Notes under the pieces: generated by a model
The model's input: only the letters and a program-made list of their open reading frames with translations
Told to the model about the DNA's origin: nothing
Database searches by the model: none
NCBI GenBank assembly: GCA_017640665.1
Contig: JAEPQE010000001.1
Span: 1,133,262 to 1,197,261, forward strand
Reading direction: 5' to 3'
Origin: Balneolaceae bacterium
Lineage (GTDB): Bacteria > Bacteroidota > Rhodothermia > Balneolales > Balneolaceae
Length of the DNA: 64,000 nucleotides
In this document: in pieces, positions 2,474-38,285 of the stretch
Numbering within the stretch: position 1 is the stretch's first letter
How the letters are laid out: every line of letters begins with the position of its first letter
Program-made: the position numbers and the translations under genes

Positions 2474-3973
2474 ATGAGATTTCCGCGTTCTTGTGGCACG
2501 CTTGTACACCCTACCTCTTTTCCGGGGAAGTACGGGATTGGTGATTTTGGTCATGAAGCCAGAGTATTTTTAGATTTCCTTGAACGAACCAGCCAAACGA
2601 TCTGGCAGGTTTTGCCTTTAACTCCCACCGGATACGGCAACTCACCCTATGCCAGTTTCTCCGCTTTTGCAGGAAACCCATATCTAATCAGTCCTGATAT
2701 ATTAGTTTCTAAGGGATTGCTTACTAAAGCAGAAGCCGCAAAAACAGAGTTACCTGCTAAAGTTGAAGTAGATTATGATAAGGCGTTTTCAAACAAAGAT
2801 GCGCTCTTTAAGATTGCCAGCGAGCGATTTTATGCTAATTTAAGTGCAGGAGACGAAAAAGAATTCAAAGCTTTTAAAAAAGAAAACACACATTGGTTGG
2901 ATGATTATGTGCTGTTTATGGCGTGTGCTCTGCATTACAAAAAACAACCCTGGAATACTTGGGATAAAGACATAGCGCAACGCAATCCAGAAGCGTTAAA
3001 GGCATATAAAAAGAAGTTCAAAGATGAGATAGAGCTCCAGTACTGGATGCAATACGAGTTCGATAATCAATGGATGGATCTTAAAAGATATGCAAATAAA
3101 AAAAATATTCGGGTAGTTGGTGACATCCCCATTTTTGTGGATCACAATAGTTCAGATGTATGGGCAAATCCAAAATATTTTGAAGTTGATGCACAAGGGA
3201 ATCGGGTTCTTGTAGCAGGTGTGCCTCCGGATTATTTCAGTGAGACGGGTCAGCTATGGGGGAATCCTCAATACAACTGGAAAGAATTAGAGAAGGATGG
3301 CTTCTCCTGGTGGGTTGATCGTTTTAAGCACATGTTTAAAACCTGTGATGCAATCAGGGTAGACCATTTTCGGGGATTTGATGAGTACTGGGAGGTAAAA
3401 GCGGATGAAAAAACAGCCATTGACGGGAAGTGGGTTCAAGGTCCTGGCGAAAAACTATTTGATACCATTCTCAAAGAGTGCGGAGAGCTCCCGATTATCG
3501 CCGAAGATTTAGGCTTTGTAACAGATGGGGTGGAAAAACTGAGAGACAAATATGCGTTCCCTGGAATGAAGATTATTCAATTCGCCTTTGACGCTGATTC
3601 AAAAAACGCATTTTTACCACATAATTATGTTCAAAACAGCGTGGTATATACAGGAACCCATGATAACGATACTACTATAGGGTGGTTCAATCAGGCTCCT
3701 GAAGGAGAGAAGCACCGGGTTAGGATTTATACGAAATCTGATGGAGCAGAAATAAATTGGGAATTTATTCGTCTTGGTATGCTCTCAGTATCCGATCAGG
3801 CAATTTTTCCTTTGCAGGATTACATGAATTTAGATGGCGCTCACAGAATGAATTTCCCGGGAACTTCATCAGGTAACTGGTTGTGGCGATACACTGATGC
3901 AATGTTTTCTTCTTTAGATGAAGACCGTATTCGCTTTTTGATAGGCTTAAGTAACCGCAAAAATGATACGTAA
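2474..3973 (+). CDS. malQ: 4-alpha-glucanotransferase (amylomaltase)
   Basis: GH77 enzyme that moves glucan chains between maltooligosaccharides, feeding glycogen turnover. At 499 residues it has the compact bacterial amylomaltase length. Motifs seen are the N-terminal TSFPGKYGIGDFG, AIRVDHFRGF with nucleophile Asp near 297, IIAEDLG with acid/base Glu near 344, and TGTHDNDTTIGW with the third catalytic Asp. It starts 6 bases after glgB, consistent with one operon. Nothing looks damaged. Identification is firm. Confidence 0.97.
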   Translation: MRFPRSCGTLVHPTSFPGKYGIGDFGHEARVFLDFLERTSQTIWQVLPLTPTGYGNSPYASFSAFAGNPYLISPDILVSKGLLTKAEAAKTELPAKVEVDYDKAFSNKDALFKIASERFYANLSAGDEKEFKAFKKENTHWLDDYVLFMACALHYKKQPWNTWDKDIAQRNPEALKAYKKKFKDEIELQYWMQYEFDNQWMDLKRYANKKNIRVVGDIPIFVDHNSSDVWANPKYFEVDAQGNRVLVAGVPPDYFSETGQLWGNPQYNWKELEKDGFSWWVDRFKHMFKTCDAIRVDHFRGFDEYWEVKADEKTAIDGKWVQGPGEKLFDTILKECGELPIIAEDLGFVTDGVEKLRDKYAFPGMKIIQFAFDADSKNAFLPHNYVQNSVVYTGTHDNDTTIGWFNQAPEGEKHRVRIYTKSDGAEINWEFIRLGMLSVSDQAIFPLQDYMNLDGAHRMNFPGTSSGNWLWRYTDAMFSSLDEDRIRFLIGLSNRKNDT

Positions 3974-4039
3974 AAGCTAACCTTTAAAAGAATTGCCCTT
4001 TTTAGTATATTGGGTGCTTGGATTTAGAATTATTTTATT

Positions 4040-4858
4040 ATGCCATTTTCACTTAATAATCTTCCAAAAAGATCGGAAAAACCCAGAAAGGAAGGGATAA
4101 CACTAGTACTCGATAAAGGGTATAGTGTCCGGCAGGCTGAAGATTTTTGCTCAGTATGTGCTGATTATACCGATGTTGTTAAACTTGGTTGGGGAACATC
4201 TTATGTTACTCCAAATCTGGAAGACAAGATAAAAGTATATACCGGTGCGGGTATACCTGTATATTTTGGAGGCACTTTGTTTGAAGCGTATTTACTGCGT
4301 GATCAATTAGGTGCCTACAGAAAGTTGCTTGAGAAGTATGAAATTAAATCACTGGAAGTTTCCAATGGAACTATCTGGATTTCGGATGACAAAAAGCAGA
4401 AGATCATTAAAGAGCTCAGTAAAGATTACACCGTTTATTCTGAGGTTGGCAGTAAAAACCCTAACGAAATAATTCCCCCCTATAAATGGGTTAACGTTAT
4501 TAAGCAAGAATTAGAGGCCGGTGCTTGCAAGGTAATTTGCGAGGCGCGTGAAAGTGGTACTGTTGGAGTTTTTCGCCCAAATGGAGAAATACGTTCTGGA
4601 CTAATTGAAGAAATTACCGATCAGATTCCAGTAGAAAATCTCATTTTTGAAGCTCCCCAAAAAGAGCAGCAGGTATGGTTTATCAAAAAATATGGTAGCA
4701 ATGTTAATCTAGGTAATATTCAACCAGAAGAAGTTATTCCGTTGGAAACGTTACGGCTCGGTTTGAGAAGCGATACGCTAATGGATTTCTACTCACTGGA
4801 TGAAGACAATGAACTAGATCAAGTAATAAAAGAGAACAAAATCTCTAACGAAGAGTAA
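4040..4858 (+). CDS. Phosphosulfolactate synthase (ComA) family protein
   Basis: A 272-residue TIM-barrel-type protein with ComA-family features: LDKGYSVRQAEDF near the N-terminus, DVVKLGWGTSYV, FGGTLFEAYLLRDQL and SLEVSNGTIWI, then SEVGSK and CEARESG. Characterised members add sulfite to phosphoenolpyruvate to give phosphosulfolactate, the first step of coenzyme M synthesis in methanogens, and make sulfolactate in Bacillus spores. No comB or comC homologue is visible here, so the product's use is unknown; a sulfonate made for lipids or as an osmolyte is only a guess. It lies between malQ (66-base gap) and the starch-synthase-like gene (13-base gap). Confidence 0.85.
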   Translation: MPFSLNNLPKRSEKPRKEGITLVLDKGYSVRQAEDFCSVCADYTDVVKLGWGTSYVTPNLEDKIKVYTGAGIPVYFGGTLFEAYLLRDQLGAYRKLLEKYEIKSLEVSNGTIWISDDKKQKIIKELSKDYTVYSEVGSKNPNEIIPPYKWVNVIKQELEAGACKVICEARESGTVGVFRPNGEIRSGLIEEITDQIPVENLIFEAPQKEQQVWFIKKYGSNVNLGNIQPEEVIPLETLRLGLRSDTLMDFYSLDEDNELDQVIKENKISNEE

Positions 4859-28071: not shown

Positions 28072-30612
28072 ATGAAAAGTCTCGTAATTGTAGAGTCCCC
28101 TACTAAAACAAAAACGATTAGCAAATACCTGCCGAAAGGGTATGATGTTGATTCGTCGATGGGGCATATCCGGGATCTTCCCGCTTCGGCTAAGATGATT
28201 CCGGCCAAATACAAAAAGGAAAGCTGGGCAACCTTAGGTATCAATCCCGATGACCGATACTTCGCCATTTATGTAACACCACCAGATAAAAAGAAGATTG
28301 TAAAGAGACTTAAAGCCAAGCTAAAAGATGTCGATGAACTCATTCTGGCGACGGATGAAGACCGTGAGGGAGAAGCTATTTCCTGGCACTTGCTGGAAGT
28401 ACTAAAACCGAAAGTTCCGGTAAAGCGAATGGTTTTTCGAGAGATCACTAAAGAAGCTGTTCAGAAAGCTCTGGAAAATACCCGCGACATCGACATGAAT
28501 CTGGTGTTTGCGCAGGAAACTCGCAGAATTCTGGATCGACTAGCGGGATATACCGTTTCTCCGTTATTGTGGAAGAAGATTTCACCGGGTCTTTCAGCAG
28601 GGCGTGTACAATCTGTTGCGGTTGAGTTTTTGGTAGAGCGCGAACGTGAGCGCATGAAATTCAGAAGCGGAACCTATTATGATTTGCAGGCTGCCCTTCA
28701 GAAATCCGGCGAGAACGATGAGTTTAAAGCTGATTTAACGCATCTGAATGAAAAGCGTATTGCCAGCGGTAAAGATTTTGATGAGAATACAGGTAAGCTT
28801 AAAAAACCGGATTCTGTAGTATTGCTTGATGAAGAAAAAGCAAGTGCTTTAGTTGATGATTTAAAATCAGCAGATTGGTCGGTAACCAAAGTTGAAGTTA
28901 ACACCCAAAAGAGAAACCCTTCTCCTCCGTTTATAACCTCTACACTTCAGCAGGAAGCGAATCGTAAGCTTGGGATGTCTGCCCGTGATACGATGAGTGT
29001 AGCTCAGAAACTATATGAGAAAGGATTCATCACCTACATGAGAACGGACTCCACAAGATTATCGAGTCAGGCCATAGACGCAGCTCGTGACGGGATTGTA
29101 GAGATGTATGGAGAGGACTATTTATTTGAGCGGGTTCGGAATTACACCAAGAAAGGGAAATCAGCACAGGAAGCACATGAAGCAATTCGCCCTTCCGGTT
29201 CGAAATTCATTCAACCGGAAAAATCCGGATTAAAGGATCGTGAATACAAATTGTACGATTTAATCTGGAAGCGAACTATCGCCACTCAGATGGCGGAAGC
29301 TGAACTTGAGTTTACCGGAGTGACCATCACCGCGAAAAATAATGGAACATCAGCTGATTTCAGAGCTAGTGGTAAGAAGATTATATTCCCGGGATTTTTC
29401 CGTGCGTACGTAGAAGGGAGTGATGATCCAGAAGCCGCGCTCGAAAATCAGGAGAATTTCCTGCCGGCAATGAAGGAAGGTGACAGCACCGATCTTCAGG
29501 ATTTGAATTTCAACTCACACGAAACTAAGCCTCCTGCACGATATACCGAAGCAACTTTGGTGAAGGAATTGGAGAAAAGTGGAGTAGGTCGACCAAGTAC
29601 ATACGCGGCTGTTATCTCTACGATCCAATCGAGGAATTACTGCAGAACGGAAGGAAAGGCCCTGGTTCCAACCTTTACCGCATTTGCTGTGACATCCCTA
29701 CTGGAAGAACACTTCCCGGATTTAGTAGACAGTGATTTTACCTCCGCATTAGAAGATAAGCTGGATGGTGTTGCCAACGGCACCGAAGATCCGGTTAAAT
29801 ATCTGGATGATTACTATAAAGGTGAAAACGGACTTCGTGCGAAAGTAGATCGACAGGAAGACAAGATCGATCCCCAAAAAGCAAAACTATTAGATCTTCC
29901 TTTGGATGGATTGGAAGGAATTCAGGTTGCTGTGGGTCGTTTTGGTCCTTATGCCAAAATGAAGAAAGGAGAAGAGGAAGTTTCGACCTCGTTACCTCAG
30001 GATATGGACCCTAGTGATGTGACTGCAGAAAAATTGGAAGAGCTGATTAAACTTTCTGAAGAGGAAGACAAGCCGATCGGTGTTCACCCCGAAGAAGGTT
30101 TACCCATCTTTTTACTCTCCGGAAGATACGGACCCTATGTTCAACTTGGTGAAGTAACGGAAGAGAATAAAAAGCCAAAACGGGCTTCTCTATTGAAAGG
30201 GATGACCCCGGAAGATGTGGATTTAGATCTGGCTGTGAAGCTTCTTACACTTCCAAGAACACTTGGCGAACACCCCGAAGATGGAAAAGTGGTGAAAGCC
30301 GGAGTTGGTCGTTATGGCCCATACGTGGTGCATGATGGAAAATTCAAATCTATCCCAAAAGATGGGAATGTACTTGAAATTGAATTAGATGAAGCGGTGA
30401 CTTTGCTCAAGCAAAAAGCGAAATCCAGAAAAAGTTCTGAGCTGAAAGATTTAGGGAAACATCCTGATACTGACCTTCCAATCAAAGTTATGGATGGGCG
30501 GTACGGCCCCTACATTAAGCATGGGAAGAAGAATATTGGTCTGCCTAAGGATACCGATCCTGCGAAGTTCAATCTTGGTGATGCTATAAGTCTGATCGCT
30601 GAGAAAGGATAG
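28072..30612 (+). CDS. topA: DNA topoisomerase I
   Basis: Relaxes negative supercoils. The 846 residues show the TOPRIM start KSLVIVESPTKTKTISKYLP, the acidic ATDEDREGEAISW, and the catalytic tyrosine in GFITYMRTDSTR (Tyr322). The C-terminus has at least four repeats built around GR(Y/F)GPY, at roughly residues 620-840, in place of zinc ribbons. It starts 17 bases after the peroxiredoxin gene. Identification is firm. Confidence 0.97.
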   Translation: MKSLVIVESPTKTKTISKYLPKGYDVDSSMGHIRDLPASAKMIPAKYKKESWATLGINPDDRYFAIYVTPPDKKKIVKRLKAKLKDVDELILATDEDREGEAISWHLLEVLKPKVPVKRMVFREITKEAVQKALENTRDIDMNLVFAQETRRILDRLAGYTVSPLLWKKISPGLSAGRVQSVAVEFLVERERERMKFRSGTYYDLQAALQKSGENDEFKADLTHLNEKRIASGKDFDENTGKLKKPDSVVLLDEEKASALVDDLKSADWSVTKVEVNTQKRNPSPPFITSTLQQEANRKLGMSARDTMSVAQKLYEKGFITYMRTDSTRLSSQAIDAARDGIVEMYGEDYLFERVRNYTKKGKSAQEAHEAIRPSGSKFIQPEKSGLKDREYKLYDLIWKRTIATQMAEAELEFTGVTITAKNNGTSADFRASGKKIIFPGFFRAYVEGSDDPEAALENQENFLPAMKEGDSTDLQDLNFNSHETKPPARYTEATLVKELEKSGVGRPSTYAAVISTIQSRNYCRTEGKALVPTFTAFAVTSLLEEHFPDLVDSDFTSALEDKLDGVANGTEDPVKYLDDYYKGENGLRAKVDRQEDKIDPQKAKLLDLPLDGLEGIQVAVGRFGPYAKMKKGEEEVSTSLPQDMDPSDVTAEKLEELIKLSEEEDKPIGVHPEEGLPIFLLSGRYGPYVQLGEVTEENKKPKRASLLKGMTPEDVDLDLAVKLLTLPRTLGEHPEDGKVVKAGVGRYGPYVVHDGKFKSIPKDGNVLEIELDEAVTLLKQKAKSRKSSELKDLGKHPDTDLPIKVMDGRYGPYIKHGKKNIGLPKDTDPAKFNLGDAISLIAEKG

Positions 30613-30691
30613 CTGTTGACAGCTCGCCCTTTGGGAAGTATTTTAGTTGAGGACGATTGACAAAAGAACAAAGATGAGTTTTCTGTGAATA

Positions 30692-30752
30692 GTCATTGCG
30701 AGGAGCCTGCTTCTGTAAATCGATTTTGAACTGAATCGACGAAGCAATCTCT
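30692..30752. repeat. Intergenic repeat of the GTCATTGCGAGG type
   Basis: About 60 bp in the topA-hypothetical gap: GTCATTGCGAGGAG at one end and GAAGCAATCTC at the other, with an imperfect inverted middle (AATCGATTTTGAACTGAATCG). It looks like a shorter relative of the 26821 element. Confidence 0.5.
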
Positions 30753-30774
30753 TTAACAACGCCCATAAATCACC

Positions 30775-31341
30775 ATGCAAAAGCGAAGCAACTTCCATTT
30801 TAAGTATCCGCCAAATATCCATACACTGGATTTGGCCACTATGGTGAATATGTACCGAAGTCGTGGTGAACCACGTAAAGCTCCGGCTGGAGAATATATC
30901 TCCTGTGCGATTTCACAAGAATTAATGAAAGAAGCTAAGTGGTGGTTCGGCTTGTTCTATTCTCAGGAAGTCTGGGATGAACTTCTTACAAAAGGAAGCG
31001 AGGGATTTCCGCTTACCAACATTGAGCTGAACGTACTGGGTCAGGTGTATTTAAGTGAAGACGAAGCCCCGCATCGGGAGTTTGTTGAAAAGAATGCCGG
31101 AGTGATAGACAAGCTGGCTTATTTGATCGTAAACGATCTGCGAACTTTCGGTTTTCTTTCTGAAGACGATAGCGGTTTCGTACGCATCACCCCAAGAGGA
31201 GAAAAAGCGTTACACGGTATTTCTCGCCGCATCTACGAAAAAAGATTCTTACCTGAAATGCTCGGGGATGCCCCCACCCCCGAAGAACCCCGCATCGAAG
31301 AAGCTCAGAAAAAAGACAAAGAGCAGACGAGTTTGTTTTAG
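30775..31341 (+). CDS. Hypothetical protein downstream of topA
   Basis: A 188-residue soluble protein I do not recognise. It is hydrophilic, begins MQKRSNFHFKYPPNIHTLDL, has PAGEYISCAISQ and a Trp-rich EAKWWFGLFYSQEVWDE helix, and a charged C-terminal tail ending KDKEQTSLF. No signal, membrane segment or catalytic motif stands out. Codon use looks like that of its neighbours, so it is likely real. It may share the topA transcript, although a repeat lies between. Confidence 0.6.
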   Translation: MQKRSNFHFKYPPNIHTLDLATMVNMYRSRGEPRKAPAGEYISCAISQELMKEAKWWFGLFYSQEVWDELLTKGSEGFPLTNIELNVLGQVYLSEDEAPHREFVEKNAGVIDKLAYLIVNDLRTFGFLSEDDSGFVRITPRGEKALHGISRRIYEKRFLPEMLGDAPTPEEPRIEEAQKKDKEQTSLF

Positions 31342-31499
31342 GGCAGAGCCTCAAACCGGCATTCCGAAAGAGAAATGAATGTTCAATAATAAATTTATTC
31401 ATCGGTTTATTTGAACTTATTTATCGAACTTTATTTGATGTCAAAATGCTCATCAATACTATGTTATGCGCCTCATAAATAGACCAACAAGATTTTTTA

Positions 31500-31507
31500 T
31501 ATATTTG
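31500..31507 (+). promoter_or_regulatory. Candidate -7 box upstream of the CPBP gene
   Basis: TATATTTG matches the Bacteroidota TAnnTTTG box exactly. No clear TTTG box lies 19 bases before it. It sits inside cassette-like unit 1, 85 bases before the start codon, so the unit could carry its own promoter. Confidence 0.3.
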
Positions 31508-31591
31508 CCTGTTTTTTTATACAAGGGTTCATTTGGTCTGCGTCCTGTTAATAGGCCCAGATTGCGACCCATTAGACTTCAGCGCAAATAA

Positions 31592-32317
31592 ATGATCGAG
31601 ATTCTATTAGGTGCATTTCTGTTTTCGTGGCTCTTGCTCCGAGTGGTCATAAAGGAGCCTATCACTGTTTTGGGTATCGTTCCAAATCGACAGCGCGTGA
31701 AAGAGTGTCTTGTTGGGTTGGTGTTCATGGCTGGCATTGCTGTGATCAACTTCATATGGCAAGCGCACCTCAAAGAGATCTCCTACCAAATTAATCCTGA
31801 CTATGGTCTAGTCCAGCTGCTGGGAGGTTCTCTTTGGGTATTGATTGCCGTGATCTTGGAGGAATTGGTATTCAGAGGTGTGATTCTATATGTGTTAATC
31901 AGGCACATTGGGTTAGTTAAAGCATGTCTACTTAGCGCAATAATATTTGGGGTCTATCACTGGTTTAGTTATGGTGTATTTGGATCTCGCCTTGTGTTAA
32001 TGATCTATGTTTTCTTGATAACGGGAGCTGGTGGTTGGATGTTTGCCTTTGCTTATGCAAAAACAAAATCCCTTTTTGCTCCCATGGGCTTGCATCTCGG
32101 ATGGAACCTAGTTACTGCGATCGTTTTTTCCTCCGGTCCAATTGGAGACCAGTGGTTACTTGAGCAAGGAGAAGCAGTTCAAACGAGCGACTGGGTCACG
32201 CTACTATCTTTTTCACTACAGGCGATATTTGCACCTGGTGTAGTAACTTGGTATTTACAGAAAATCTATCAGTCAAGGTCGAGTTCAACAGAAGGGCGTA
32301 GACTCAACGGCGCATAA
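31592..32317 (+). CDS. CPBP family intramembrane metalloprotease
   Basis: A 241-residue integral membrane protein with several hydrophobic helices. The CPBP (CAAX/Abi) signature is present as EELVFRGVILYVL (Glu-Glu and Arg), GVYHWFSYG, and a late HLGWNL. Family members act in prenyl-protein processing, peptide-pheromone maturation or bacteriocin self-immunity; none can be chosen here. The stop codon lies inside the right inverted box of the unit. Confidence 0.85.
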   Translation: MIEILLGAFLFSWLLLRVVIKEPITVLGIVPNRQRVKECLVGLVFMAGIAVINFIWQAHLKEISYQINPDYGLVQLLGGSLWVLIAVILEELVFRGVILYVLIRHIGLVKACLLSAIIFGVYHWFSYGVFGSRLVLMIYVFLITGAGGWMFAFAYAKTKSLFAPMGLHLGWNLVTAIVFSSGPIGDQWLLEQGEAVQTSDWVTLLSFSLQAIFAPGVVTWYLQKIYQSRSSSTEGRRLNGA

Positions 32318-32325
32318 CAAGGCCA

Positions 32326-32734
32326 TTAGCCAACATTCAGAAAGAGTTTGGAAAAATTTATACCCAAAGATAAACATGATATTCAAGCTGTTGAGGAATG
32401 TATTAGAATTGGGTATCCAGAAATAAAGCCAATATTACCAGAACTACTGAATTGGATTCAAGATATGAATTGGCCTGTAGCCCAAGTTTTAGCTCCATTT
32501 CTAGCTGAAAACGCAGAGTACATAGAAACCGAAATCAGAGATATTCTAAATGGTGATGATGAGATTTGGAAATATTGGGTTATGATAGAAATACTTGGGA
32601 AATCCCCTCAGCTACAAAAAAATCTTCAAAATGAATTAGAGAAATTTGCCAATCACCCAACAGAATCAGAACAAATTGAGGAATTAGATATAATTGCTAA
32701 AGAAATTCTTAAAAAAACAAACCATGTTGGCTAA
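32326..32734 (+). mobile_element. Cassette-like unit 2: DUF5071 gene between inverted boxes
   Basis: TTAGCCAACAT at 32326-32336 and its exact inverse ATGTTGGCTAA at 32724-32734 enclose one gene, whose TAA stop is the end of the right box. The boxes differ in sequence from those of unit 1, but the layout is the same, and the left box begins 6 bases after unit 1's right box. Confidence 0.45.
32348..32734 (+). CDS. DUF5071 (HEAT-like) domain protein
   Basis: A 128-residue helical protein starting at TTG 32348. It has the DUF5071 pattern: FIPKDKHDIQAVEEC, IKPILPELLNWIQDMNWPVAQVL, and alpha-solenoid-like LL repeats. Members often sit in accessory regions; the function is unknown and a role as an immunity or antitoxin-like protein is only speculation. 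It fills cassette-like unit 2, with start and stop close to the boxes. Confidence 0.75.
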   Translation: MEKFIPKDKHDIQAVEECIRIGYPEIKPILPELLNWIQDMNWPVAQVLAPFLAENAEYIETEIRDILNGDDEIWKYWVMIEILGKSPQLQKNLQNELEKFANHPTESEQIEELDIIAKEILKKTNHVG

Positions 32735-33246
32735 CACCTTTTATAAGGACCTTGTCAAGTAGATAGTATTCTTCCAAGCTCCGTTTGAGCTTATTTTTGT
32801 TCGTGTTGTGCAATTACTACTTCTTCGTGCTGTTTGTGATCTGCCTTACCGGCACCCTTGCTATCTATGTGGCGCCTAGTGGCCACCAAACAACTTTGCG
32901 GGCTTGTCCCAAATCTACTTCGGAACTGTTCCGGCTTAGCCGAAACAACCTTTCTATCATACAAGATTTCGGAAGTGGTAGCTACGTGCAGGCAGGTCTC
33001 AAGGGAGGACTAACTAAAGTTGTCATGCTGAACTTGATTCAGCATCTGTGAAGATCAAAGCTTTTTATTAGCTTTAGCGCTTAGATCAAAGAATCAATCC
33101 CAACAGATCCTGAAATAAATTCAGGATGACCACGAATCTAGGTAGCTTCTTTAAAGCCCCCTCTGTAAAGAATTCCCAAACCCAATTGCCTCTCCCTTGC
33201 GATTAGTTATATTCAATCACTTATAAATTTAATGAAGGGAATTCCG
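32735..33246. other. Gene-free accessory spacer
   Basis: About 510 bases between the DUF5071 and S41 genes. An 88-codon frame at 32785-33051 ends in a translated repeat and looks spurious. The left part has short GC-rich inverted stretches such as CGGC-TTA-GCCG near 32934. The right part holds the GTCAT repeat at 33022-33130. I see no gene; it may be the remains of further inserts. Confidence 0.5.
33022..33130. repeat. Intergenic GTCAT-ended repeat
   Basis: A 109-bp element from GTCATGCTGAACTTG to GGATGAC. Its left part forms a hairpin ATGCTGAA/TTCAGCAT with a 5-base CTTGA loop. The leftmost bases of this repeat encode the end of the spurious ORF noted above. Confidence 0.65.
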
Positions 33247-36200
33247 ATGAAAAGAATAGGTGGGTTTATTTTGATATTAGCTGTTGTCACAGTCTCATTT
33301 CAGCAAGTATTAGCACAAGGTACTCAATTACTGAGACAGCCAACTATTTCCGAAACGAGTATCGTTTTTGTACATGCCAATGATTTATGGAAAGTAGACA
33401 AAGCAGGTGGAACGGCTACTCGATTAACAAGTAACATAGGAGGGGAATCAGAGCCACATTTTTCCCCTGATGGTTCTATGATTGCTTTCACTGGTCAGTA
33501 TGCAGGTAATTCGGATGTATATGTTATCCCCGCTGAAGGAGGAGAACCAAAGCGATTAACCTGGTATCCGGGTACAGACAATGTTACCGGTTGGACGCCC
33601 GAAGGTGAGGTTTTATTCCGATCCGGTCGATCTGGTTATCCTACGGCATTGAATCAATTTTGGAAAGTAAGTACTGATGGAGGTACGCCAACTATGCTTC
33701 CGATCCCAAGAGCGGCGTCTGGGGAGATTTCATCTGATGGAAAATATGTCGCCTATAACCCAATAACTTTCTGGGATTCAGAGTGGAGAAATTATCGCGG
33801 TGGTCAAGCGCAACCTATCTGGATTGTAGATCTGAACAACTTTGAATTAGTTCAGACCCCAAGAACCGATAATGAAAGACACACTGATCCGGTATGGCAT
33901 GATGGCTCGGTTTTTTATCTTTCTGAAAGAGATTATGCCAACAATATCTGGTCATACAATCCCGCTACAGGAGAGGAGAAGCAATGGACGTTTCACTCAG
34001 ATTTCGACGTAAAGAGTTTAGATGTTGGTGGGGAAATGATTGTGTATGAGCAAGGTGGATATTTACATGTAATGAATCCCGAAAATGGTGAAGCGGAACA
34101 GATCTCCGTAACAGTAGCCGGTGACATGAGTTGGGGGCGGGAGCGCTGGGAAGAACCTACTGCCTTTCAAATGACAAACCCAGCTCTTTCTCCAACAGGC
34201 AAAAGAGCTGTTTTTGAAGTTAGAGGTGAAATTATTACGGTTCCAAAAGAAAATGGAACGTGGAGAAATCTTACAAACTCATCCGGTAGTGCAGACCGGG
34301 CTCCTGTTTGGTCACCAGATGGATCAAAAGTTGCATGGTTTTCGGATAGAAGCGGAGAGTATTCTTTATTAATCTCCGATCAGTTTGGACAAGAAGAACC
34401 AAGATCGATAGAGCTCCCCAATCCTACTTTTTACTTTCAGCCTGCGTGGTCTCCGGATGGTAAATTTATCGCTTACACAGATACCGATTACAATCTTTGG
34501 TATGTAAATGTTGAATCAGGAAAGCCCACGACATTTGATACGGATGGGTATGCTCATCCAAACCGGACATTCAATCCGTATTGGTCTCCGGATAGTAAAT
34601 GGATTGCCTATGTGAAGCTTCTGGATAGCCAATTTAAGGCGGTTCATGTTCATAATGTTGAAACGGGGGAAACACACATGCTTACGGATGGGATGTCTGA
34701 TGCGATTACACCCGTCTGGGACGAAAGTGGAAAGTACTTATACTTTTTAGCTAGTACCGATTTTGGTTTAAATACAGGTTGGCTGGACATGAGTTCGTAT
34801 GATATGTCGGTTACTCGGGATTTGTATATGATTGTTCTTTCTGAAGACGATCCCTCTCCTATCCTCGCAAAAAGTGATGATGAAGAAGTAAAAACTGAGA
34901 ATTCTGAGGATGAGGAGAATGACACAAATGAAGAAGTGGTTATTGACTTGGATGGAATTTCAGAGCGAACACTCAGCCTTGATATCCCGACCAGAAACTA
35001 TCAGGGATTATTAAAAGGACCAGAAGGAGCAGTATTCATTTTCGAGTCTGTACCAAATGAAGGCACAAAACTTCACAAGTACGAAATCAAAGATCAGGAG
35101 GCTTCAACGTTTTTATCCAGTGTGAATAATGCGGTAGTATCTGAAGATCGGAAGAGCTTGTTATATCGTTCAGGTGGTACCTGGGGAATTGTGGAAACTT
35201 CTGGTGGGGAAAAGAAAGTGGGTGATGGCAGATTAGCACTTTCAGGAGTGAAAATTAAGATCAAGCCAGAGGAAGAATTTGAGCAGATTTTCAGGGAAGG
35301 ATGGCGATTCATGCGCGATTTTTTGTATGTAGACAATATGCACGGCGCTCCATGGAAAGACGTGTATGAGTGGTATGCTCCGTGGGTTAAACATGCGAAG
35401 CATCGCTCCGATTTAAACTATGTGGTTGATATCATGAGTGGCGAAGTAGCCGTAGGTCATTCCTATGTTAGTGGTGGTGATTTCCCTGATTTAGAAAGCG
35501 TACCTGCTGGCAGACTAGGTGCTGATGTTGAACTTGAGAATGGAGCATATAGAATCAAGAAAATCTATACCGCAGAAAGCTGGAATCCGAATTTAAGAGC
35601 GCCGCTTTCAGGTCCGGGAATCGATGTAAATGAAGGGGATTATATCCTTGCTGTAAATGGGATTGAGATTGATCCCGTGCAAAATTATTACAAGTACTTT
35701 GAAGGGACAGTGAACCGACAAACTCAGTTATTGGTAAATGACCATCCAAATATTTCAGGAGCCCGATTAGTAACGGTAGTTCCAATTGCAAATGAAGGCG
35801 GGCTCCGAACCCGACATTGGGTAGAAGAAAATCGCAGGAAAGTGGATGAAATGTCCGACGGACAACTTGCCTATGTTTGGATTCCAAATACTGGAAACGG
35901 TGGTTATACCTATTTCAACAGATATTACTTCTCACAACAGCATAAACGAGGAGTAGTGCTGGATCAGAGAAATAATGGCGGTGGATCAGCAGCAGATTAT
36001 ATCATTGATGTGTTGAATCGCGATCTCCATGGATTTTTTAACAGTAAAGCCGGGGATCGCAAACCATTTCCATCTCCGGGTGCAGGAATCTGGGGACCAA
36101 AAGTAATGATCATAAATGAACGTGCTGGTTCAGGCGGTGATTTACTTCCGTTTATGTTCAGGAAGGAGGAAATAGGTCCGCTTATTGGAACCAAAACGTG

Positions 36201-36599: not shown

Positions 36600-38285
36600 A
36601 TGCCAGCACATAATGCCATAAATAATAAAATTGTATTCAAAGGAAATGCAAAAGAAGCAGAAGATAAGCATAGACCTATACTATCTTTAGAAATAAGGAA
36701 AAAATTTGGTAAGGGTCCTTTTTCTAAGCAAGAGACAGTTCGTGACATAATTCTGTTTTGTCTCAATTACTATGTAACAGAATTCAAGGATGTTTGTCAC
36801 AAGGAAACTTCACTTACTTTTTACCAAAACATCTTATGGTTTCATGAGCAAGCAACAGAAATAGCTGTGCTTCATAAAGAGGATGATTTATCAGAGCCAA
36901 TAGATCATGAATATATTTCAATCTATAGAAGAGTATTGAAATTTATTTTAGAAACAGGCTGTGATGTTAAAATGGTTTCTGGAGAAGCTACGGATCAAAA
37001 ATTTATTTCAAGAATTGAACCAGTTCTGAATAACCTTTTATATCTAGGCGAAATGATATTGAGCCTTGCTGACTTCTACGCCGAGCAGTCAATGATAGAA
37101 GAAGTAGTATTGATTTCTTTCGATGAAAAAGGGCAGTTTAAATTTAGTAGAAATCATCATTATAACTTTATTTTTGAGCATATAATCAAGGAACTTGGTA
37201 CACATTTATTCAAAACAGTTGTAGATGAATCTGATCTCGCTGGAATTGAAGATTTGAAAAATTCATTCCAAGAATGTTTTGGGATTAAGTATGAAGCGGT
37301 TAGTCATATGGTAGCGGCTATTGACAAACAATTAAAGGAGAAAGGAGATTCGAATGGAGTTAATTGGGAAACATACACTTACAATATGAAAGAACAATTT
37401 TCAATTCCATATGAGATAACAGAACAACTGTTTGGCGGCTTAAGGCTTGATAAAAATATTAAAATGGATTTATTGGATTTAGCATGCAAGCCATATAGAA
37501 TTGATCGATACTTATACAAACCGTTACTTATTTGGAATATTGATGGCAAAGACTTTTCATTTCTGGGAGTAAACGCTTGGACTGAATCACTTCTCCAATA
37601 CGCTACAAATGCAATTCCTTGGGGAAAAGCACCAAAGGAGTGGTTAAGCAACCAATGCTTTAAAAAATATGTTCATAAGAAAGAAGATGAACATGGTAAA
37701 TGGTTGGAAAATGCTTTTGAAAAAATTGTTCTAGAGCTAAATCTTAAATATGATAGAAATGTAAAAACATTGAATCATAATAAAGGTAGTGAAAGAATCG
37801 ATATTAAAGGATTGGGAGAAGTAGATTTTATTGTAGTATCTAATCATACAAAACGAATTTATATAATTGATTGTAAGCATTTGATGAGCAGATACGATAT
37901 AGCAAATCAAAGGAATGACTATAATGCGTTTGTACTAAATAAAAAATCTTACAATAAAACCATGAGGAATAAGCTCGATTGGTTTACTAGCAATAAAGCA
38001 ATACTTATACAACATCTTTCAGGATTAGGGGGAGTAAAAGAAATTGAAAATTATTCTATTGAAGGAGTTTTTGTAATAAATACTCCAACGCTTTACATGT
38101 ATAATTCGGAATTTAGAATTTATACGATTAGCCAAATAAAAGATGTTTTATTAAATAAATATGTGGATCCAAAGTTTTTAATTTTAGATGAAGAAAATAA
38201 TAGCACATATTCTGTTGGCTACCCATATTTCAAAAAGCCTAAGCAAATTAATTTTGATAGACTTTCAGAACAGAACGATCATTAA
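36600..38285 (+). CDS. Hypothetical protein with PD-(D/E)XK nuclease-like C-terminus
   Basis: A 561-residue, AT-rich gene. The N-terminal 380 residues are mostly helical and unrecognised. The C-terminal part has GLGEVDFIVVSN (Glu407, Asp409) followed by IYIIDCKH (Asp424, Lys426), the order and spacing of a PD-(D/E)XK nuclease core. No helicase, methyltransferase or specificity subunit is adjacent. It lies between two housekeeping genes, with its 3' end overlapping the malic enzyme gene by 4 bases. A defence role is possible but unproven. Confidence 0.6.
   Translation: MPAHNAINNKIVFKGNAKEAEDKHRPILSLEIRKKFGKGPFSKQETVRDIILFCLNYYVTEFKDVCHKETSLTFYQNILWFHEQATEIAVLHKEDDLSEPIDHEYISIYRRVLKFILETGCDVKMVSGEATDQKFISRIEPVLNNLLYLGEMILSLADFYAEQSMIEEVVLISFDEKGQFKFSRNHHYNFIFEHIIKELGTHLFKTVVDESDLAGIEDLKNSFQECFGIKYEAVSHMVAAIDKQLKEKGDSNGVNWETYTYNMKEQFSIPYEITEQLFGGLRLDKNIKMDLLDLACKPYRIDRYLYKPLLIWNIDGKDFSFLGVNAWTESLLQYATNAIPWGKAPKEWLSNQCFKKYVHKKEDEHGKWLENAFEKIVLELNLKYDRNVKTLNHNKGSERIDIKGLGEVDFIVVSNHTKRIYIIDCKHLMSRYDIANQRNDYNAFVLNKKSYNKTMRNKLDWFTSNKAILIQHLSGLGGVKEIENYSIEGVFVINTPTLYMYNSEFRIYTISQIKDVLLNKYVDPKFLILDEENNSTYSVGYPYFKKPKQINFDRLSEQNDH

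Follow-up and report, generated by a model that had tools for sequence, protein, structure and literature searches.

The window that we analysed, a stretch of 64,000 nucleotides, carries near its centre two genes on the plus strand, one encoding a CPBP / type II CAAX protease-like membrane protein of 241 amino acids (31592-32317; PF02517, CPBP/Rce1-like, E-value 6.9e-17) and the other a DUF5071 protein of 128 amino acids (32348-32734; PF16804, E-value 1.1e-31). The segment is variable, since in two congeners (G001 and G002) malic enzyme comes right after the upstream gene (30775-31341), without either of the two genes in between. The nearest relatives of the CPBP protein are found in Gammaproteobacteria, at 70-73% identity. 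Plasmids yielded only distant relatives (<60% identity) and phages only short insignificant matches, a DUF5071 relative was not found among viral contigs, and a promoter scan remained at background level.

The initial annotation had described an exact 11-bp inverted pair around each gene, with the stop codon in the right box and a 6-base spacer between the two units, and all of this was recovered: TGTTATGCGCC/GGCGCATAACA at 31462-31472 and 32309-32319 (unit 1), TTAGCCAACAT/ATGTTGGCTAA at 32326-32336 and 32724-32734 (unit 2), a TAA stop inside both right boxes (32315-32317 and 32732-32734) and the spacer AGGCCA at 32320-32325. A bare 11-bp inverted pair has little meaning here, because the window contains 44 such pairs at distances of 300-1500 bp, as compared to 17-44 (mean near 27) in 20 shuffled versions. 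The box as a repeat of the genome was considered and rejected, as TGTTATGCGCC occurs exactly twice in the 3.8 Mb, i.e. as the two unit 1 boxes, and matches with one mismatch are at the control level. The significance of the two pairs lies in their anchoring on GTT at the start and AAC at the end, in the TAA within the core and in their mutual abutment. Contiguous complementarity of at least 10 bp with a GTT/AAC anchor was present in 10 of the 34 cassette pairs from arrays of relatives, versus 2 of 1122 mispaired combinations. The unit 1 pair extends over 10 bp from the anchor, its 11th base pair being formed by a T of attI and an A of attC, and the unit 2 pair extends over 11 bp when counted from TT, its G having changed to A.

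Read in terms of integron cassettes, the boxes correspond to the outer arms of attC sites. The left box of unit 1 contains the R' site GTTATGC (31463-31469) plus an extension, with the bases from 31464 onward belonging to cassette 1, and the same R' is found in attC sites of relatives. The right box holds the R'' site GCATAAC (32312-32318), including the stop codon, and continues as GCATAACAAGGC. The left box of unit 2, assigned by the exact box match, has TTAGCC plus an extension, i.e. an R' in which A (32325) replaces the invariant G. The right box of unit 2, together with the C that follows (32724-32735), supplies the R'' site GGCTAAC (32729-32735), known from attC sites in the loci L159 and L161 and from the class 1 dfrA12 cassette. 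Both R'' sites differ from RYYYAAC at one position, like many in the arrays of the clade. Each ORF thus ends in an R'' and has a complementary R' at the start of its unit, with the G|TT crossover in unit 1 and A in place of G in unit 2. On the basis of the crossover rule and the box pairing, cassette 1, with a truncated attC, would span 31464-32325, and cassette 2, by its box pair, 32326-32735, the right limit of the latter being uncertain, as no attC is recognisable downstream.

The same layout is found in relatives that do carry an integrase, as was seen in arrays read from up to 20 kb fetched around IntI in 20 relatives. Their attC sites, about 88-146 nt long, start with GYATAAC-AAGGCG-TTTTAA..CGGAC and end with CCGYTTAAACGCYGGGYC-GTTATRC, or close variants. 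Four successive cassettes of one relative (G005) have the pairs GTTATAGTGC/GCACTATAAC, GTTATACTGCC/GGCAGTATAAC, GTTATACATAGC/GCTATGTATAAC and GTTATGCAGCAA/TTGCTGCATAAC, which are perfect over 10, 11, 12 and 12 bp, respectively, and differ from cassette to cassette. Most of the other 24 start/end pairs (out of 34) span intervals of more than 800 bp, which probably include an undetected attC. In class 1 integrons, the aadA2 cassette has an own pair of 12 bp and the dfrA12 cassette one of 7. Cassette-specific paired boxes are a consequence of the opening of a circular cassette at R' and are not themselves new. Neither of the two genes was found as a cassette inside the live array of a relative, and inspection of the flanks of the gammaproteobacterial CPBP relatives and of the DUF5071 relatives revealed no visible boxes or attC.

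The first box is preceded by an attI. The ~120 bp from the stop of the upstream gene to this box (31342-31463, plus strand) are homologous to the attI sites of two relatives, G153 (L160) and G314 (L159), both of which lie directly upstream of intI; the Smith-Waterman scores were 66 and 53, versus 35 and 30 for the best of 500 shuffles. A BLAST search with 106 bp against 92 genomes of the family returned the G153 attI, just upstream of intI, as the best non-self match (4.4e-9); a further 24 bp aligned collinearly at 96% identity. The match comprises about 58 + 24 bp and leaves roughly 80 bp of the G153 attI without a counterpart in the window. The attI core of the clade, roughly aata[ct]tatGTTA, which ends most of the relatives' attI sites, also ends the site described here and places the crossover between G31463 and T31464. 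A shared chromosomal position with the integrons of the relatives was considered and rejected, as their intI does not lie in the vicinity of topA and the genes next to it. In the assembly of G153, two contigs (C9 and C26) both start inside a copy of the attI-type sequence (bases 1-53), which suggests that the assembly was broken by multiple copies of attI.

The junction between the two units (32312-32332, plus strand) reads GCATAAC-AAGGC-C-A-TTAGCC and has the composition of a collapsed attC without the L''/loop/L' part, which in relatives measures roughly 70-110 nt. Its beginning, GCATAACAAGGC (32312-32323), equals the first 12 nt of the family attC and is identical in sites of G005 and G280, and some family sites end in GGCCGTTA. 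A deletion from GGC to GGC in a family attC yields GCATAACAAGGCCGTTAGCC, from which the sequence in the window, GCATAACAAGGCCATTAGCC, differs by a single transition that affects the crossover G. As judged from this comparison, the junction could have arisen by only two events, namely one deletion between GGC triplets and one G-to-A change. The two ORFs are at this point joined as fused, attC-truncated cassettes, and of the R''-L''-loop-L'-R' hairpin that a cassette normally owns only those first 12 nt are left after unit 1. An attC covariance model gave no significant match over 30600-33300, and Rfam gave none over the locus. Folding for attC-like hairpins, as the initial annotation had proposed, produced no supported structure beyond unit 2, where the four R' candidates had z-scores between -0.1 and -1.2 and were rejected, and a half-site R''-L'' at 32729 was not significant, the loose pattern matching eight times in the window. 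Because there is neither a significant model match nor a convincing fold after unit 2, the second attC has either been lost or can no longer be recognised. With no intact attC left at the locus, the assignment as cassettes depends on the box pairs, on the attC prefix and on the attI.

Full-length attC sites are present elsewhere in the host genome (G000). The covariance model was built from 19 attC sites of the family, none of which came from this genome, and recovered eight sites in it at an E-value of 0.1 or better (best 1.4e-15); these E-values are rough, and the matches in G005, G314 and G014 include training sequences whereas those in G000 do not. One region (L194, G000:C1:1013500-1021500) contains, at 3112-4472 on the minus strand, an integrase-less array of at least four attC sites, in which three cassettes in a row are bounded by own-box pairs of 11, 10 and 12 bp. 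The search for further ORFs with paired boxes that had been recommended was thus successful both here and in the relatives' arrays, the opposite of the outcome that had been named as a refutation. A second attC cluster occurs in L195 (G000:C4:33000-41000) at 2927-4548; one of its cassettes holds two small overlapping ORFs that, by eye, resemble a ParE/RelE-type toxin-antitoxin pair. Contig C3 has two attI-like cores, cggataatattatGTTATG (L196:3177, plus strand) and cttaataatatGTTATACC (L197, about 4189, minus strand); behind each of them lies a single cassette that has a matching end box and an attC that is intact, and neither core is accompanied by intI.

The integrase itself is missing, as had been remarked from the letters of the window: the best score against TIGR02249 in the host genome was 82 bits versus a cut-off of 265, in a draft assembly of 9 contigs that is 98.8% complete and in which an intI in a gap is possible. 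No trace of intI, as required for a complete integron, was found near the locus, where an intact upstream gene occupies the position in which it would lie. Integron integrases were found in 110 of the 245 genomes of the host's class, many of them in its own family.

It is well established that IntI inserts cassettes at attI by an exchange at G|TT. We consider it very probable that the locus is what remains of a chromosomal integron in which intI was lost, attI and two cassettes (CPBP and DUF5071) were kept and the attC sites decayed. An IntI would once have captured both cassettes into attI (31342-31463). Each cassette circle would have had one attC, with the R'' arm at the stop codon of the gene, and opening between G and TT upon integration would have left the R' arm at the cassette start. 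That there was one attC per circle, opened at R', would account for the complementary pair around each gene, for the difference between the two pairs and for the TAA in the right box. To judge from its position, cassette 2 would have been captured before cassette 1; a difference in GC content (32.6% for cassette 2 versus 44.2% for cassette 1) and the gammaproteobacterial relatives of CPBP fit with separate captures but do not prove them. The intI gene was then presumably lost, the attC between the cassettes may have collapsed to R'', spacer and R' by the deletion between GGC triplets, and the attC after cassette 2 would have disappeared as well, the relative order of the loss of intI being likewise conjectural. 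Most likely, the two genes at present form a fused, immobile block.

A related possibility is that a since-lost integron elsewhere put the cassettes into a chromosomal site that resembled attI, in which case the integrase would never have resided at the locus. The other host loci at which a single cassette follows a short attI-like core without an integrase speak for such an origin, but the similarity to attI extends over ~120 bp, i.e. far beyond a core target, and makes it very unlikely. Such sites (the two-cassette locus, L196 and L197, all of them an attI core plus cassette without integrase) are also the basis for a broader idea, namely that the clade repeatedly seeds cassettes in trans at dispersed attI-like sites, rather than at one platform only, with fixation by attC collapse; we regard this generalization as rather unlikely.

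The initial annotation had suggested a minimal cassette system. If it were a new one, the 11-bp boxes alone would serve as recombination sites for another recombinase, without an attC hairpin. Two abutting units with paired boxes and no hairpin between them invite that reading, and the kinship with integron cassettes that the annotation invoked on account of boxes that differ between units is indeed borne out by the attI, the attC prefix and the relatives' arrays. The same boxes, however, form the outer R arms of complete attC sites, both in relatives and in the host genome, the right box of unit 1 runs on into attC spacer sequence, an attI is present and box-only arrays were not seen. The boxes do not represent a different, minimal kind of site but correspond to the R' and R'' termini that any normal cassette has and that are joined only in the circular form. 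The remainder of the attC between the units has been deleted, there is an attI upstream, and full-length family attC sites occur elsewhere in the genome and in IntI-bearing relatives. The proposal of a separate system is thereby largely refuted and highly improbable. Even less credit can be given to the notion of two small transposon-like elements mobilized by a transposase in trans, with the boxes as their terminal inverted repeats, for although inverted pairs occur at both ends of each unit, no terminal sequence is common to the two, the stop codon is part of the right box and the resemblances to attI and attC are left unexplained. That two unrelated genes are flanked by inverted matches through chance would be plausible if only the pairs counted, with ~27 exact 11-bp inverted pairs at such distances per shuffled 64 kb window; but both pairs have a (G)TT/AAC anchor and carry the TAA in the core, a feature seen over at least 10 bp in just 2 of 1122 controls, they abut and the end of the attI coincides exactly with the first box, so that coincidence has barely any credibility left.

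As an integron remnant, the locus is of a known kind, being a further and more eroded example of an integrase-less remnant with fused, attC-truncated cassettes. Integrase-less attC clusters (CALIN) are common and have been proposed to be degraded integrons (PMC9024848), and the locus shares with them the single-ORF units, the stop in R'', the complementary start and end, the family type of attC and the absence of a nearby integrase; it differs in that it lacks a complete attC and yet keeps an attI. Lacking intact attC and intI, it falls outside the strict definitions of a CALIN (at least two attC sites without intI, as found in L194 and L195) and of a complete integron, while it does possess the attI and the cassette ends. 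Truncated-attC and fused cassettes have been described in class 1 integrons (PMC4670013, PMC12901181). In such fusions, i.e. blaGES-1/aacA4 (PMC4670013) and the unusual cassette type i (Partridge 2009 as cited in PMC12901181), the first cassette has, as here, hardly more than R'' left of its attC and the two ORFs form one block; compared to these descriptions, the present locus is chromosomal and without integrase, its attC is almost wholly truncated and the R' that follows lacks its G. With the integrons of the family (G005, G153, G314 and G014) it has in common the attI core aata[ct]tatGTTA, an attC starting with GYATAACAAGGCG and boxes of 10-12 bp, whereas those integrons have intI and intact attC sites. 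A caller that depends on attC would miss the locus, because no complete attC is left; the own paired boxes can thus expose a former cassette where the hairpin has been deleted and standard attC and integrase searches come back empty. The locus gives no pointer to a new recombination system; it records the loss of an integrase and the fixation of cassettes in a lineage in which integrons are common.

Two further observations concern the surroundings. Adjoining a tricorn-type protease, an ORF of 561 amino acids (36600-38285) has a GC content of 30.7% versus 40.9% for the window and no Pfam match; neither it nor the protease is found at that position in the two congeners. Closer to the cassettes, the intergenic sequence GTCATGCTGAACTTGATTCAGCATC (33019-33050) has near-identical copies elsewhere in the host genome and looks like a dispersed palindromic repeat.
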